Shown in pieces: positions 3,181 through 24,008 of a stretch of 28,681 nt of DNA. Below the pieces are notes generated by a model. The model was not told where the DNA came from and did not search any database. It saw only the letters and a program-made list of their open reading frames with translations. Position 1 is the stretch's first letter. Each line of letters opens with the position of its first letter. Source of the DNA: a virus; IMG/VR virus record IMGVR_UViG_3300031772_000210, positions 1 to 28,681 of that record; one strand, 5' to 3'. The position numbers and the translations under genes were made by a program.

Positions 3181-3714
3181 ATGAAAAATATATTAATTCT
3201 TTTACTTCTCTCTATTTCTTGTTTTGCTCAAACAAAGCTTGATAGCTTAGTATTCAATAAAGTAAATGAATATAGAGCATCTAAGGGTCTTAGCAAGATA
3301 TCTTGGGACACTGCTGCCTTCAAAGCGAGCAAATGTCATTCTGATTACTTAGAGGGATTGGCTGCTAAGACAAACTATACAGTTATCACTGCTGGTCACT
3401 CAGAGAATGCTAAGGGTCTTGAAGATGCTGAAGATAGATTTATTCACTTTGGTGGAAAGACTAAATATGTTGGTGAAATTGTTTTGATAAACTCATCTAA
3501 TTTAAAAGATAATGATGCTGACAAACTTGATAAGTTAGCAACCAGCCTTGTAAAACAATGGAAAGATTCACCAAAACATAATGAAATTATGTTAACTCCT
3601 AATTTTAACTTTGGTGGTATTAGTTGTAAGATTATTACCAGACCAGCTGGATTAAGAGGAATCACAAATTATGAAACTTGGTCAACTTTTGTCTTTGCTA
3701 AAATCCCTGATTAA
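3181..3714 (+). CDS. Exported CAP/SCP-domain protein
   Basis: 177 residues. The first 16-18 residues (MKNILILLLLSISCFAQ) form a typical Bacteroidota signal peptide. Cleavage after the AQ is likely; the Cys has only a weak lipobox. The mature part fits the bacterial CAP (cysteine-rich secretory protein/SCP) fold: an N-terminal helix with NKVNEYRASKGL and a following W-D, a His in the AGHSEN region, a V-G-E-I segment, and the hallmark W-K-D-S-P-K-H-N before NFNFGGIS. CAP proteins act outside the cytoplasm, and bacterial members are mostly of unknown biochemistry. As the last gene of a host-promoter unit it is probably made early and exported, perhaps altering the cell surface. It ends convergently with, and overlaps by four bases, the OmpA-like gene. 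Confidence 0.8.
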   Translation: MKNILILLLLSISCFAQTKLDSLVFNKVNEYRASKGLSKISWDTAAFKASKCHSDYLEGLAAKTNYTVITAGHSENAKGLEDAEDRFIHFGGKTKYVGEIVLINSSNLKDNDADKLDKLATSLVKQWKDSPKHNEIMLTPNFNFGGISCKIITRPAGLRGITNYETWSTFVFAKIPD

Positions 3715-3727
3715 CCCCAGGGATTTT
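3700..3727. terminator. Bidirectional terminator between convergent genes
   Basis: Ten-base-pair stem AAAATCCCTG / CAGGGATTTT with an eight-base loop that contains both stop codons. A-rich and T-rich flanks allow it to work on both strands. Confidence 0.7.
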
Positions 3728-4574
3728 GCTTATTGCCCCAAGTAGGACACAAATATGTACTATTTTTACCTGTTCTTCTGTGATGTTTGATTGGACCCAA
3801 CCCAAAATTGAACTTGAATCCACCTTTAAACTTATGGCGACTGCCAGTATCAGTACTACCCTTTTCCTTCGATAAATAATAAGTTTTTGTTATAGGTTGT
3901 TCTGGTTTGGGTTCGCGTGGTTCTGTTACTTCCGGTTTAATATAGTAAATATCAACGCTAACGTATCTAGCTGACTGTTCAATCTCTGCTTCTCCTTGTT
4001 CATATTTTTGTTCCGTTTGTATTAAGCTATTATTGATACCCAATTCTCCCATGTAAGTAGATATTGATTCGCTTCTGGCTCTAGATAAGCCCTGATTATC
4101 TGGTGTATATCCTTTAGAACTTAATAGATTTCGTAAATTAGCACTTGGTTTTTGTTTATCAGTTGATGATACAATTACAATATCAGTAATTACACCATTA
4201 TCATTGCTAATACTAGCTAGTGAATTATAGATACTATCACTCACTTCTTGTGATAATTCAAATTTACCAGATTGGAAGTACTGATCTTTATCAAGCTTAA
4301 TTCTCGTAACCATCATTTCATCCTGTGGTGCCTTTTCTTTAACTTCATTGAATAATGTATCGACTTTAACCGAATCAAGACTCCAACCACGTTTAATTAA
4401 ACTTGGTAGACTAGCTTCCTGCTTAGTATGAAATGTTCTTCTTGATCCAACATCTTCACCTTTTTGACCAAATGCGCTAACACCCAGTATAGATAATAAA
4501 CCAACAAGAATGTTTTCTTTCCATCCTTCTTCTTCGTTTATCTTATCGAATTCGCTAAATTTTGATATTCTCAT
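3711..4574 (-). CDS. OmpA-like domain protein with capsid-targeting-like leader and hydrophobic segment
   Basis: 287 residues. The leader MRISKFSEFDKINE carries an I-N-E site at residues 12-14. It is followed by a hydrophobic stretch (about 21-36, NILVGLLSILGVSAFGQ) that resembles a signal peptide or membrane anchor. About residues 98-212 match the OmpA C-terminal (peptidoglycan-binding) family: an F-x-x-G-K-F-E-L-S opening, an S-T-D in the central strand, N-Q-G-L-S-R-A-R-S, and a closing ARYVSVDI. A basic Gly/Lys-rich tail follows. It is the last gene of the four-gene operon starting at 7939, one base after its upstream neighbour's stop. If packaged and cleaved, it could be ejected and then anchored in the envelope against peptidoglycan; that is inference. 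A structural virion role is the alternative. Confidence 0.72.
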   Translation of the reverse strand: MRISKFSEFDKINEEEGWKENILVGLLSILGVSAFGQKGEDVGSRRTFHTKQEASLPSLIKRGWSLDSVKVDTLFNEVKEKAPQDEMMVTRIKLDKDQYFQSGKFELSQEVSDSIYNSLASISNDNGVITDIVIVSSTDKQKPSANLRNLLSSKGYTPDNQGLSRARSESISTYMGELGINNSLIQTEQKYEQGEAEIEQSARYVSVDIYYIKPEVTEPREPKPEQPITKTYYLSKEKGSTDTGSRHKFKGGFKFNFGLGPIKHHRRTGKNSTYLCPTWGNKQNPWG

Positions 4575-4575
4575 A

Positions 4576-6327
4576 TTAGTCTTTTGCTTTGCTCATATTA
4601 TCAGTTAATATTTTGATAATACTATTAATTTTATTTGCTTCTTCTTTAGAAGAGTCTTCTAAACTAATTTTAGCCCATTTAATGGCTTGTTTATAGCCTC
4701 TATCAGCACCATTATTAATTAACCAAGTAACTAATTCAAGGTGATTGTTTTCTGCCGCAAATTTAAGTGGCATACCATCTTTAGAGTTAATATCAACTCC
4801 CTTATTATGTAAGTATTCAACTAATTTAGTGTTACCTGTTCTACAAGCAGCACGTATAGCATAAGCATCTTCGAAGTTAGGATCAACACCATATTCTTCG
4901 ATGATATACTTAACCGCATCAAAGTCACCTGATAGTGATTTAAATGCTTCTTTATTCATTGATGCACCATGTTTAAGTAAAAGTTTCAACATATCAAATG
5001 TCTTAACTAATGATACTGCCGTTTTATTCTTTTCATATGTAATATCTGGATTAGAACCATTTAATAATAGAAACTCAGCAATTTCTACGTTATTTGTTTT
5101 TACGGCATTTCTGAGTGGTTTACCTGAATCGATATTTATATTAGCACCATCCTCAAGACATTGTTTAATTCTCTCTAATGTTGGTAATTTTTCACCCTTT
5201 AACTCTCTAGACGCAATATTATATTTCTCTTTCTGTGCTTTCTCTTCTTTGGTCATACCACGAAGAGCTTCATTTTCTTCTTTTGTTAAATCTCGTCTAA
5301 CATCAGCTTCATTAATGTGATTATCATTTTTAATATGTGCTGTTGTAAACTTATCTCTCATGTCAATAGTCGCACCGATAATTGACCTCTGATTTGTTGG
5401 TGGTAATGAGTAATCAAAAATAGCATATTGTTTAGTGAATTTATCTTCACCACCAACATATTGATCCCAATAACTTTGCATTCTCATAATACACCAATTT
5501 GTCTGTGCACATGTAATTCTACAAGCATCAAAGGATTTCAATTCTAATATTATGCGTTCTTTATCTTCATTGATGTAAGCAACAGCTATACCCCACTTAT
5601 CACCATATTTACTATTAACTTCTTCAACTTTCTTTAATAGATTAGCAAGACCATCATTACTAGATGCTTTAACATATGTTTCTACCCTCTTAACTAATTC
5701 ATCTACGGTTCTATATGCACTAATTTTTCTAAGAAACTCTTTTCTTAAAATTGGATCTAAGTCAAAGAAACCTGCGGCTGCGCCTTCAAATCTTTCTTTA
5801 ATCTTACCAGTTGCTCTAATAACATCATGTTTTAACTCGGACGGTAACTCATTAATAAAGTTTTTAACTTTACGTTGTATTACTAATTGTTCGACATCGT
5901 CACGTAAATCTTCAAGTGCAGTTCTATCTTCTAATCCAAATCTCTTTTCTGATTCAAGATATTTATCGACTGTTTTTGGTAGCTTATTTAAAACATCTCT
6001 ATTCTCAATGAGTTTATTGTATAATTCAGTTAATTCTTCAAGTGAACCTTTATCTCTAAAGAAAAACTTGGTAAATACCTCAGTGTAACCTGGGTTTCTT
6101 TCTACTAATTTCTTAATCTTTAAGAAATTTTCATCATTCTCAGCTCTACGAATCTCTTCTGGTGTTAGCTTAATTTGTAGTGGCTTTTCACCTTCTTTTG
6201 GTGGTTCTTGTGGACCAGCCCTTTCTATCTTTTGAGCCAACATAGTATCACGCATAAATTTCTTAGCGTTTTGTACGTTCTCATTTAATGACTTACCTAT
6301 AAAATTCTCGTAGTTAAATAATTTCAT
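4576..6327 (-). CDS. Ankyrin-repeat protein with capsid-targeting-like leader
   Basis: 583 residues. The leader MKLFNYENFIGKSLNE ends in an L-N-E site at residues 14-16. Residues 50-240 are charged and mostly helical. Residues 245-335 form a separate domain with clustered Cys and Trp (CRITCAQTNWCI, then W-D-Q-Y and KQYAIFDYSL); I have seen T-x-W-C motifs of this kind in other phage proteins of unknown function. From about residue 383 to 570 there are ankyrin repeats with the usual G-A-N-I-N, A-E-F-L-L-L-N-G, L-L-L-K-H-G-A and V-T-W-L-I-N-N-G-A-D signatures. Ankyrin repeats bind proteins. With a head leader, this is a candidate ejected effector. It overlaps the upstream gene by one base (TAATG-type coupling). 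Confidence 0.78.
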   Translation of the reverse strand: MKLFNYENFIGKSLNENVQNAKKFMRDTMLAQKIERAGPQEPPKEGEKPLQIKLTPEEIRRAENDENFLKIKKLVERNPGYTEVFTKFFFRDKGSLEELTELYNKLIENRDVLNKLPKTVDKYLESEKRFGLEDRTALEDLRDDVEQLVIQRKVKNFINELPSELKHDVIRATGKIKERFEGAAAGFFDLDPILRKEFLRKISAYRTVDELVKRVETYVKASSNDGLANLLKKVEEVNSKYGDKWGIAVAYINEDKERIILELKSFDACRITCAQTNWCIMRMQSYWDQYVGGEDKFTKQYAIFDYSLPPTNQRSIIGATIDMRDKFTTAHIKNDNHINEADVRRDLTKEENEALRGMTKEEKAQKEKYNIASRELKGEKLPTLERIKQCLEDGANINIDSGKPLRNAVKTNNVEIAEFLLLNGSNPDITYEKNKTAVSLVKTFDMLKLLLKHGASMNKEAFKSLSGDFDAVKYIIEEYGVDPNFEDAYAIRAACRTGNTKLVEYLHNKGVDINSKDGMPLKFAAENNHLELVTWLINNGADRGYKQAIKWAKISLEDSSKEEANKINSIIKILTDNMSKAKD

Positions 6328-20885: not shown

Positions 20886-21767
20886 TTATTCAGAATATAA
20901 TAGGTTAATTGAGATCTTATTCATAACAGCTCTTTGAAATGCTGATAGCACGGCATGATAATCGAACTCTTCTCCTTGTTGGTCTCTAAACATCTTGTAG
21001 ACATTTTTAAAAATTTTACCATTATCACTAAATGTCTTTTTAATCTCATTTAATAATAATCTGGCATCTTGTCTATTTGTCAATGGATGTTTCGCATCTC
21101 TATTTATAAAATCATTATAGGTTTCGGATATAAATGAATTTGCGCGTCCATATAATTGGTCTTCAATTTCTTTTGGACTCATATTAAGAAAATCATCAGC
21201 ATATGCGCATATTTCTGATTTTAGTGAGACACCAACTCTAAATGGTTCAAAGTCTCTAATTTTAGCCATTTTAATAAATTTTTTCCCTTCATTTGGCCAC
21301 ATTGGATTTGGTTCAAGTTCTTTTTCCACTACATCGACAAAACTAAAGTGTGGTAAAAATTCAATACCGAACCAATCTGCATTAAGATATTCTCCTATAC
21401 CATCCCATAGTTGCGGGCAGTCAAAATCCATTAGATAAAAATTAGTGTCGCTACTAATTGAAGTATTTGTTTTGAAGTTATAACCACCTGGTATCTTCTC
21501 TGGTTGTGTTGGTGGTATGTTTACTTTTAGTTTAAATGCATTTGAGCATAGAGATTTATTTTTCAACTCGTTCTCTAATTTTATTATATCTGATTCTAGA
21601 TTTGCCTCAGCATCAGCAATTTCTTTCCTAATTTCCTCAGCTCTTATGATACTACCATAACTAGCTAATTTTTGGCCTCTCGTTGAGTGACCATATCTCA
21701 ATAGCTTTTCGCCGGCCTGTTTATAGGTGTCGCTTTTTAATTCGTCTATGCGCTTAATATGTTTCAT
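20886..21767 (-). CDS. Probable internal head protein with capsid-targeting-like leader
   Basis: 293 residues. The leader MKHIKRIDELKSDTYKQ has I-D-E at residues 7-9. A helical charged region (about 20-70), then a globular part with DFDCPQLWDGIGEY, ADWFGIEFLPHFSF and PFRVGVSLKSEI, and a helical C-terminus ending in LLYSE. No family is recognised. Its ATG overlaps the previous gene's stop by one base, so the genes from 24008 to 20472 are likely one operon. Confidence 0.6.
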   Translation of the reverse strand: MKHIKRIDELKSDTYKQAGEKLLRYGHSTRGQKLASYGSIIRAEEIRKEIADAEANLESDIIKLENELKNKSLCSNAFKLKVNIPPTQPEKIPGGYNFKTNTSISSDTNFYLMDFDCPQLWDGIGEYLNADWFGIEFLPHFSFVDVVEKELEPNPMWPNEGKKFIKMAKIRDFEPFRVGVSLKSEICAYADDFLNMSPKEIEDQLYGRANSFISETYNDFINRDAKHPLTNRQDARLLLNEIKKTFSDNGKIFKNVYKMFRDQQGEEFDYHAVLSAFQRAVMNKISINLLYSE

Positions 21768-22762
21768 TATTTAATCTTAATACTAAAGTAAACCCAATAG
21801 TTAGATGGCTTTACTGAAACTACAATTTTATCCGACCAGCGGTATTTTGATAACCAAGTTTTAAAATTCTGTTTTAAATTTTGAAATTCGCCTTCATCTA
21901 ATATCGTACCATCCCATTTACCAACACCATAGATACCAAATGACATTATACCATTCGCAATCATAATTCTACTTCTTTGTTCGTAGTTACCTGGTTTATA
22001 TTGTAGCAATTCTTTTTTAGCAGTCATTAGCACTTTAATTGTATTAATTGTTATATCTTTCATTTCTTTTTTGAAAGAAGCTAGTGACTTGTTGGATTTA
22101 TTCATAAGACTAAATATAACTGAGTTTGTTAGTTTAAATTGACCAATTAATAATTTATCATTGTTTGATATTATACCATAATCAAGATATACAACACCAT
22201 CAGAAAATGATATACCCATATATAATCCACATTTATCTTTACACTTTTCTAAATGTTTTATACCATTGTGTAAAGAGTGGTAACGAGACATAACATCAAT
22301 CAAATCCTGTTTATCTGCTTGATATGACCAATAGATATAATAATTTTCCGGACAAGTTTCCCAATTTGGTTCTTTATTTGCACCAAATGCTGTCAGTGTA
22401 TATAAAAAGCAATTGAAAGTATTTTTTCCTGCAACTGCTATTTCTTCTATCTCTTCGGTGATGCCTTCATTAACTACACTAGCAGTTACCGTTAGCTCAC
22501 CTTCTTGTGTATCAGATAAAACATCTTCAATTTCTTTAACCAAGGTTTCTTTATCCCAATCCGATAATAAATTAACAGCGTTTGCTATCTCTATATCCGG
22601 TTTACTTTCTGTTAAATAATTGTTTACTATTCTTAGTATATCTTCATTTTCTTTAATTTTATCTTCAACCCATATACCAATAGATTTATCCTGCTCGATT
22701 TCTTCAACTCGACCCAGTGACTCAGTTATAAAATTATAATATTTTTTAATTATCTTCATCAT
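21767..22762 (-). CDS. Probable internal head protein with capsid-targeting-like leader
   Basis: 331 residues. Two adjacent ATGs give MMKIIKKYYNFITESLG; the second is the better match to the leader. Candidate processing sites are I-T-E|S at residues 12-14 and V-E-E near residue 20. The N-terminal 110 residues are acidic and helical. The later part has Cys/Trp/Tyr clusters (NWETCPENYYIYWSY, CKDKCGLYMGISF) and a repeated [ST]-x-x-W pattern. No family is recognised. Its start overlaps the end of the membrane-protein gene by 17 bases. Confidence 0.6.
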   Translation of the reverse strand: MMKIIKKYYNFITESLGRVEEIEQDKSIGIWVEDKIKENEDILRIVNNYLTESKPDIEIANAVNLLSDWDKETLVKEIEDVLSDTQEGELTVTASVVNEGITEEIEEIAVAGKNTFNCFLYTLTAFGANKEPNWETCPENYYIYWSYQADKQDLIDVMSRYHSLHNGIKHLEKCKDKCGLYMGISFSDGVVYLDYGIISNNDKLLIGQFKLTNSVIFSLMNKSNKSLASFKKEMKDITINTIKVLMTAKKELLQYKPGNYEQRSRIMIANGIMSFGIYGVGKWDGTILDEGEFQNLKQNFKTWLSKYRWSDKIVVSVKPSNYWVYFSIKIK

Positions 22763-23591
22763 TTTCTAATTTTGTATCACCATCATTTATTGGTTTGATG
22801 TTTGAAAGTTCGGCGAATGTTTGAATAGATGGTTTTAGATCTGATAGATCATCATTCGCGCCTAAATCTTGTTTAATTTCTTCTTCTTCTTTTTTCTTGA
22901 AACCAAATCTATCTTTTAGTCGACTGATGAAATCAGTTATAAAGTTCTTAGATATTAATGTGCTAATACCAACACCCAATCCTAAAAATATACCAGGTAG
23001 TGTATCTATATCAATTTTGTATTTTTCAACTAGTGTAGCCAATGTTGACATAACTGGTATTAATAGTGCAGTATATGCGAACATATCAGCGAAGCCATAT
23101 ATTACCCTTCCTAAATGTTTACATATGACATTAAATACACTTTTAATTGAGTTTAATACTTTAACTAGTTTTTTTACGACACCGTATACTCCCTGTAATC
23201 TAAATTCTTCTAATTCAGATTGTATATCTTTTGTTAACTTATTTTTTTCAGTTTGTGATAGTTTATCTTTTCTATCTTCTAAATAAACAATTGAGATAGC
23301 GCATACCGTCATCTCAACTATCATCAGCGGAGTAACGGTTACATTTAGATTCATATTCTTAACAAGATTATCAATGATAGGATAGAATGCTGCAACACCT
23401 GTACCAAATGTTACTATGAAATTGAAGTTTACTCCAATATCATTCATAACCTTTTTATGTAAATCTTCCCATATAGATGTCCCACCTTTGGCTTCTTCTT
23501 GTAGATTATCCGATAATATACCATTAATAAAATCTTGTGACATCATATCAATATATGATTTAGAATATTCTTCGAATCTTTGGACTTTCAT
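22746..23591 (-). CDS. Multi-pass membrane protein with capsid-targeting-like leader
   Basis: 281 residues. The leader MKVQRFEEYSKSYID is followed by L-Q-E-E-A near residue 30. About four hydrophobic segments follow: 54-76 (FIVTFGTGVAAFYPII), 84-104, 162-188 (FADMFAYTALLIPVMSTLA) and 196-214 (GIFLGLGVGISTLI). A charged loop of about 55 residues lies between the second and third. The C-terminus is acidic. A TTAATATATA copy ends four bases before the ATG. A membrane protein carrying a head leader would be unusual: it might be ejected and insert into the inner membrane. The alternative is an ordinary membrane protein (lysis, exclusion) whose start merely resembles the leader. Confidence 0.6.
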   Translation of the reverse strand: MKVQRFEEYSKSYIDMMSQDFINGILSDNLQEEAKGGTSIWEDLHKKVMNDIGVNFNFIVTFGTGVAAFYPIIDNLVKNMNLNVTVTPLMIVEMTVCAISIVYLEDRKDKLSQTEKNKLTKDIQSELEEFRLQGVYGVVKKLVKVLNSIKSVFNVICKHLGRVIYGFADMFAYTALLIPVMSTLATLVEKYKIDIDTLPGIFLGLGVGISTLISKNFITDFISRLKDRFGFKKKEEEEIKQDLGANDDLSDLKPSIQTFAELSNIKPINDGDTKLENDEDN

Positions 23592-23595
23592 TGCT

Positions 23596-23605
23596 TATAT
23601 ATTAA
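23596..23605 (-). promoter_or_regulatory. Candidate late promoter TTAATATATA
   Basis: Exact minus-strand copy, four bases before the ATG at 23591. Either the RNA is leaderless or the element serves another purpose. Confidence 0.5.
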
Positions 23606-23624: not shown

Positions 23625-24008
23625 TTACCCAAAATAAGAGTAAACTTCGTAGTCTTTTATCTTAAAGTCAATAAACATCATATCGGAATAGCTTTCTGGA
23701 TTTTCGGCAAATCGAATAGTTAACTCATAATTAATTCCTGCTATTTCGGGAATATATAAATCTATTTGATTAACAATTTCAGACTTAACAAAGTCGGCAG
23801 ATACTCTAGTTTCATGTAAGAATCGTTCTAGGTCTGCGCCAAATACTGGATCACCAAATAATTCACCTTTACCCGTAAATAAAATCATCTCATATTTTTG
23901 TAAAACTACCTCAATTATCTCATCTTCTATAATTTCTAATGGATTATATCGAGGATGACCCTGATATAAGATATAGAAGTCGGTAAAATTAAAATTTTCT
24001 GCTGCCAT
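23625..24008 (-). CDS. Baseplate wedge protein, gp25-like
   Basis: 127 residues, close to T4 gp25 (132). The diagnostic segment ILFTGKGELFGDPVFGADLE, then the helix and beta-hairpin (LTIRF, FIDFKIKDYEV) match the gp25/lysozyme-like wedge family. In T4, gp25 sits at the hub-sheath boundary and helps start sheath assembly. The EPR-type motif of the family appears here as the variant I-P-E-I. It is the first gene of the minus-strand unit reaching 20472. A TTAATATATA copy is four bases upstream. Confidence 0.8.
   Translation of the reverse strand: MAAENFNFTDFYILYQGHPRYNPLEIIEDEIIEVVLQKYEMILFTGKGELFGDPVFGADLERFLHETRVSADFVKSEIVNQIDLYIPEIAGINYELTIRFAENPESYSDMMFIDFKIKDYEVYSYFG

Follow-up and report, generated by a model that had tools for sequence, protein, structure and literature searches.

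What would a hydrophobic phage protein do with an N-terminal leader of the kind that T4 uses to send internal proteins to its head? The question is raised by a gene on a virus contig of 28,681 nucleotides (28.7 kb), here called the window, which codes for a T4-like TerL, gp25, gp44 and a gp15-like protein. The product of the gene, P0001, begins with MKVQRFEEY. The coordinates in the initial annotation proved exact, and the gene lies on the minus strand, in the following surroundings:

22746..23591, minus strand: P0001 gene, 281 aa
21767..22762, minus strand: next gene, overlapping the P0001 gene by 17 nt; leader score 17.1
20886..21767, minus strand: third gene in the run; weak leader, score 7.3
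23625..24008, minus strand: gp25-like baseplate wedge gene (phrog_261, E 7e-7), upstream of P0001; leader score -10.2, i.e., no leader; AATATATA in front

To describe the leader, a model of 14 columns, built from the window and three megaphage genomes only, was used with a pass mark of 10 bits. Scores above 10 bits were obtained for 180 of 917, 153 of 888 and 132 of 969 ORFs of the three megaphages and for 9 of 35 ORFs of the window, against 2.2, 2.6, 3.1 and 0.0, respectively, expected from decoys that start at internal methionines; a start-codon artefact is ruled out by these decoys. The model was trained on the megaphages that it counts, and T4, phiKZ, phage G and P-SSM2 served as independent tests. 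Out of 222 T4 ORFs, four passed 10 bits, and ipIII, ipII and ipI ranked first to third (17.6, 17.4 and 15.7; the chance of this ranking is 5.6e-7). Mutational work on T4 IPIII, as described in PMC9026906, assigned targeting to residues 4 and 7 and processing to residues 8 and 10, and the gp21 cleavage motif is given there as L/I-X-E. In IPIII, the aromatic pair and the I-x-E occupy these residues, and the megaphage leaders keep the same parts: two aromatic residues three apart, then [ILV]xE.

Two further trivial explanations were rejected. The enrichment does not come from one paralogous family, as clustering of the 474 leader proteins gave 362 clusters with unrelated bodies (1921 clusters in total). 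The enrichment of cut sites is not due only to the model's own columns, for selection on the columns before the site still gives hxE[ASGN] in 119 of 512 proteins versus 172 of 1725. Leader ORFs of LR756502, LR745206 and LR756501 (tiles L005-L114) occupy 169, 143 and 111 body clusters, and a large set of LR756502 leaders reads like MKHLKxYKIFES. The gene caller accepted ATG only and took the longest start, so some leaders were missed; the LR745206 homologue of P0001, given a wrong start, scored -7.6.

P0001 itself scored 11.3 bits, and only 0.2-0.3% of internal-Met decoys exceed 10 bits. The leader-like N-terminus and the L-Q-E-E-A site noticed in the initial annotation are both present, the latter as L30-Q31-E32-E33-A34:

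23496..23591, minus strand: leader, residues 1-32, with aromatic pair F6/Y9; score 11.3; AlphaFold2 helix 6-26
23490..23504, minus strand: predicted prohead-protease site L30-Q-E-E-A34, in a low-confidence linker (residues 31-37) between two predicted helices

Relatives of P0001 were sought in several ways. A tblastn search of a phage collection matched the contig to four records only, megaphage genomes of 634-735 kb from uncultured metagenomic phages; Al-Shayeb et al. place their largest phage genomes in the Mahaphage clade, for which Bacteroidetes hosts are predicted (PMC7162821). A single-sequence search of viral contigs with P0001 was fruitless, tblastn with two distant homologues returned already-known megaphages only, and GTDB genome contigs contained no family member detectable with the patterns used. 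Alignment-based scans of viral contigs revealed 23 and then 32 loci of the P0001 family, and each of the three megaphages had one match. Together, the viral-contig homologues, the three megaphage copies and P0001 make 30 distinct proteins, 29 of them besides P0001. The N-terminal aromatic pair is present in 27 of the 30. An [ILV]xE within residues 18-38 is present in all 30 (L30-Q-E32 in P0001), compared with 1955 of 6185 (32%) of the 21-residue stretches elsewhere in the same proteins, and serine directly follows the glutamate in 18 of the 30 first matches. In four homologues (L134, L135, L136 and L143), about 50-60 extra residues lie between the first leader site and the body. A second tag at the C-terminus was considered and discarded: an I[KN]EQ-like end is found in 26 of 30 family members, P0001 not among them, and in 0 of 474 leader proteins.

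P0001 has the key-residue pair of a T4-type capsid targeting sequence (CTS) in F6/Y9 and an L/I-x-E site following the leader. We conclude that its N-terminus is likely a CTS-type leader; the leader is probably cleaved. T4 IPI, IPII and IPIII share with P0001 an aromatic-pair leader and an L/I-x-E site and were selected by the same model, and IPI, like P0001, has its I-x-E some residues beyond the aromatic pair. P0001 differs from them as follows: its predicted cut site is about 20 residues past the pair; its body is hydrophobic and conserved in the clade, whereas T4 IP bodies are soluble and variable; and its residence in the head is putative. Head proteins of the giant phages phiKZ and SPN3US lose an N-terminal part after Glu to a gp21-like protease, but the SPN3US propeptides described in PMC7411985 are 111-130 residues long, unlike a short aromatic leader.

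In all three megaphages, a large ORF near the portal gene contains an S77-protease-like stretch (PF03420, E 1e-4 to 1e-6, below the Pfam cut-off); the window is a fragment. In LR756502 and LR745206, this ORF is flanked by the portal gene and the major capsid gene, and in LR756501 it has the matching position. It is perhaps a protease fused to a scaffold:

LR756502 225272-227371: ORF of about 700 aa, S77-protease-like in its N-terminal part
LR745206 198546-200669: ORF of about 700 aa, S77-protease-like in its N-terminal part

Among megaphage and window proteins matching T4 proteins, the leader was found on 0 of 17 virion (shell, tail) or packaging proteins and on 2 of 48 replication or metabolism proteins. 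These two are the RNA ligases RnlA of LR756502 and LR745206 (score 19.2 each), while RnlA of LR756501 has no leader (-7.1); the leader is thus a module that can be added or lost. Six of ten leader proteins chosen by hand received Pfam names: RNA ligase, poly(A)/CCA polymerase, SET domain, two methyltransferases and FMN reductase. RnlA, a tRNA repair enzyme, is a possible head cargo, and a poly(A)/CCA polymerase with a leader fits the same idea:

L031:10690-11961: leader-bearing RnlA
LR745206 470485-471747: leader-bearing RnlA
L037:5869-7053, minus strand: leader-bearing poly(A)/CCA polymerase

Two other leader-bearing proteins of the window were noted. In the first, the leader (15.6) precedes a stretch resembling a signal peptide and an OmpA-like domain (E 6.6e-5, which is below the Pfam cut-off). 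A hydrophobic stretch directly after the leader is also seen in several leader proteins of LR756502, and in proteins of this type removal of the leader might expose a signal for export once in the next host.

3711-4574, minus strand: protein with leader, signal-peptide-like stretch and OmpA-like domain
4576-6327, minus strand: leader-bearing protein with ankyrin repeats at its C-terminus

The initial annotation did not expect membrane proteins inside a DNA-filled head, and proteins of this type are indeed rare in the leader class. With Kyte-Doolittle hydrophobicity averaged over 19-residue windows (KD19), a segment at 1.8 or more was found in 17 of 474 leader proteins versus 199 of 2148 others. 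Two or more such segments were found in 1 of 474 versus 70 of 2148, and that one is P0001. When the threshold was lowered to 1.7, two more leader proteins with two segments appeared, one of them the LR756502 homologue of P0001. The P0001 family is the chief multi-segment exception among leader proteins. About four hydrophobic segments had been noted in P0001, and we find three at KD19 of at least 1.6 and one weaker:

23364..23420, minus strand: hydrophobic segment 1, about residues 58-76; KD19 1.42 (at 59-77); weaker
23286..23342, minus strand: hydrophobic segment 2, residues 84-102; KD19 2.02
23091..23279, minus strand: long basic loop, residues 105-167; 13 K+R, 8 D+E; expected to be cytoplasmic
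23028..23084, minus strand: hydrophobic segment 3, residues 170-188; KD19 1.81; adjoins the invariant D169-M-F and Y173
22953..23009, minus strand: hydrophobic segment 4, residues 195-213; KD19 1.65; weaker

With three segments at 1.6, P0001 departs from the soluble body of T4-type CTS internal proteins; by comparison, none of 70 control proteins, taken from the megaphages or the window for their match to a T4 protein, had two or more segments at this threshold. Averaged over an alignment of 26 homologues, the four peaks are lower (1.37, 1.64, 1.64 and 1.17; two of them clear, the others weaker), and in 6 of the 30 distinct homologues no segment reaches 1.6, so that an integral membrane protein is likely, not certain. 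We consider it likely that P0001 is in a membrane at some stage, and its body is probably a helical, four-segment membrane protein. Segments 2 and 3 are separated by the basic loop, and this, together with short outer loops that have few charges, suggests an N-in/C-in topology with both termini cytoplasmic. In two homologues (L169:5995-6885 and L170:5995-6891), the loop between segments 2 and 3 contains a Cys-rich insert of the CxxC type.

An AlphaFold2 model calculated from 26 alignment rows is all-helical and of moderate confidence (mean pLDDT 68, pTM 0.64). It consists of a helix at residues 6-26, a linker at 31-37 with pLDDT below 50 around the proposed cut site, and the body. A Foldseek search of BFVD with this model returned a single match at E of 0.001 or less, A0A8D9CDY1 (E 7e-7, 24% identity), an uncharacterised protein of an uncultured marine phage. 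Its fold is P0001-like, but it is 589 aa long, and the P0001-family domain is therefore a portion of a longer protein there. The PDB yielded no match by fold at E of 0.001 or less and no useful match by sequence, and Pfam and PHROGs gave no convincing match for the family. A tail tape measure protein was considered and rejected: the profile similarity, seen in 10 of 22 family members, is unconvincing (best E 0.0027) and may reflect composition, and P0001, at 281 aa, does not have the great length of such proteins.

The neighbouring genes had been called virion related. This is correct for the contig, given gp25 and the two downstream proteins with leader scores of 17.1 and 7.3, but does not extend to the relatives. 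In 23 of 29 family loci, the next gene downstream, 47-90 bp away and on the same strand, codes for the gp41 helicase (phmmer match to T4 gp41, E 4e-35), and the surrounding cluster comprises DNA polymerase, helicase and nrdA genes; this neighbourhood is missing in the window, in the 735-kb genome and in four other loci. In T4, gene 41 is preceded by gene 40, whose annotation reads "membrane-associated initiator of head vertex assembly"; Thanatos-1 has the same order, and in AS-zj a single gene separates the two. T4 gp40, a head vertex assembly chaperone, resembles P0001 in being encoded directly upstream of gene 41, in being membrane-related and in its proposed role at the start of head assembly. 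It is unlike P0001 in being 114 aa long and acidic, with no hydrophobic segment (maximal KD19 0.83) and no leader (score -6.0). Alignment of the P0001 family with gp40 by hhalign showed no sequence similarity (probability 0.1), and no gp40 matches were found in the three megaphages (W01-W03). The comparison accordingly comes from gene order and is a functional hint, not a claim of homology.

A short element in front of the P0001 gene bears on the timing of its expression:

23596..23603, minus strand: AATATATA element, candidate late promoter, 4 nt before the P0001 ATG

AATATATA precedes the family gene in 24 of 26 distinct contig homologues (25 of 29 family genes when counted by locus). In the same loci, it was found before 0 of 29 gp41 ORFs, 0 of 30 upstream helicase ORFs, 0 of 12 DNA polymerase ORFs and 4 of 20 nrdA ORFs. 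Leader genes of the three megaphages have it within 25 nt upstream more often than other genes (75/180 versus 51/737, 48/153 versus 47/735, and 24/132 versus 35/837); in the window alone the difference is not significant (3/9 versus 2/26, p 0.09). It also precedes gp25 genes as well as lysozyme-like and fibre-like genes, the latter two judged by eye, and was not found within 25 nt of portal and capsid genes. On account of this company, from which the word "late" derives, AATATATA is read as a possible late promoter, and the P0001 gene is probably expressed late. The element is located 4-5 nt before the ATG in the window and in many megaphage genes; if it is a promoter, transcripts starting downstream of it would be nearly leaderless.

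From features that were computed (the leader, the site, their conservation, the hydrophobic segments and gene order), we infer a course of events in which late expression, membrane insertion, topology, core binding and cleavage would together amount to a tether. Proheads of T4 are described as beginning on the inner membrane and detaching upon maturation by gp21 (PMC9026906; see also PMC9958956 and PMC4493910), and SPN3US proheads formed without the protease are described as remaining on the membrane (PMC7411985). We tentatively propose that P0001 is a membrane tether: its leader would be lodged in the core of the prohead and would be cleaved by the prohead protease. The body of P0001 would be seated in the host inner membrane and its leader built into the scaffolding core, so that head assembly would be tethered to the membrane; the protease would then cut at L-x-E during head maturation and release the head. 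A core-held leader that is cut by the protease, joined to a membrane body, would serve both attachment and release. Both ends of P0001 must be cytoplasmic for this model. It is favoured by the performance of the leader model on T4, the [ILV]xE in 30 of 30 homologues, the AATATATA bias, the segments and basic loop, the gp41 adjacency and the protease-like ORF. Against it stand the lack of similarity to gp40, the gaps in the gp41 neighbourhood, the moderate segments, the sub-cut-off protease matches and the pLDDT of 68.

The main rival is the ejected channel of the initial annotation, a possible reading that the tether, which was not among the explanations listed there, matches at least as well. 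P0001 would be loaded into the head by its leader, stay trimmed and soluble amid the DNA, and after ejection with the genome insert in the inner membrane of the new host as a DNA-entry channel or a membrane-altering factor, e.g., for superinfection exclusion. Loading is the known job of T4-type CTS leaders on other proteins, as described in PMC7411985 and PMC3012670, and since known CTS proteins are soluble ejected cargo, this point favours ejection over a tether. The moderate hydrophobicity would suit solubility inside the head, and the tape-measure similarity, weak and perhaps compositional, points the same way. The leader class, however, avoids hydrophobic segments, and in most relatives the gene lies in a replication cluster, not among virion genes. 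We regard ejection as possible, though somewhat less probable than the tether. What stands of the earlier interpretation is that a hydrophobic protein has a T4 CTS-like head leader and a prohead-protease-type site, which are kept in relatives; the argument from neighbours does not stand beyond this contig.

It is less probable, and in our view unlikely, that the leader is a general N-terminal signal unrelated to the head, such as one for a replication compartment or for translation, and that P0001 is an ordinary phage membrane protein. The leader is on 14-20% of genes, RNA ligase, poly(A)/CCA polymerase, SET and methyltransferase proteins included, and these are more kinds of protein than in the heads described in the literature consulted. 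Yet the same model placed three T4 CTS proteins at the top, the aromatic pair and I/L-x-E coincide with mapped CTS residues, and the leader is on 0/17 and 2/48 of the two T4-like classes given above and rare in the sampled parts of phiKZ (1 of 168 ORFs), phage G (1 of 172) and P-SSM2 (0 of 128). A lysis factor (holin or antiholin) acting late in infection is very improbable, for although P0001 is hydrophobic, probably late, and single family members have marginal similarity to holin PHROGs (E 0.038 and 0.063), there is no convincing Pfam or PHROGs family match (best holin PHROG E 0.038, 1 of 22 members), the protein has 281 aa and a long basic loop, no endolysin recurs next to the gene in the 29 loci, and a holin would have no need of the protease-type site, which is conserved.

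Our literature search, mostly of openly available main texts, found no paper on capsid targeting leaders of megaphages or on the P0001 family. The 132-180 proteins with a T4-type leader in each megaphage are a list of candidate head cargo that includes RNA ligase, poly(A)/CCA polymerase, SET and other methyltransferases. Conceivably, though we would not rely on it, the T4 CTS has become a general loading tag in the largest phages, carried by about 14-20% of genes, with P0001 at its membrane end and the cutting of P0001 as the event of prohead release. Proheads of T4-like and giant phages assemble on the inner membrane and come off it once the protease acts, and it is the link between the two that is at stake. 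A conserved protein in which a membrane body is combined with a core-targeting leader and a cut site would make this prohead-membrane link testable.
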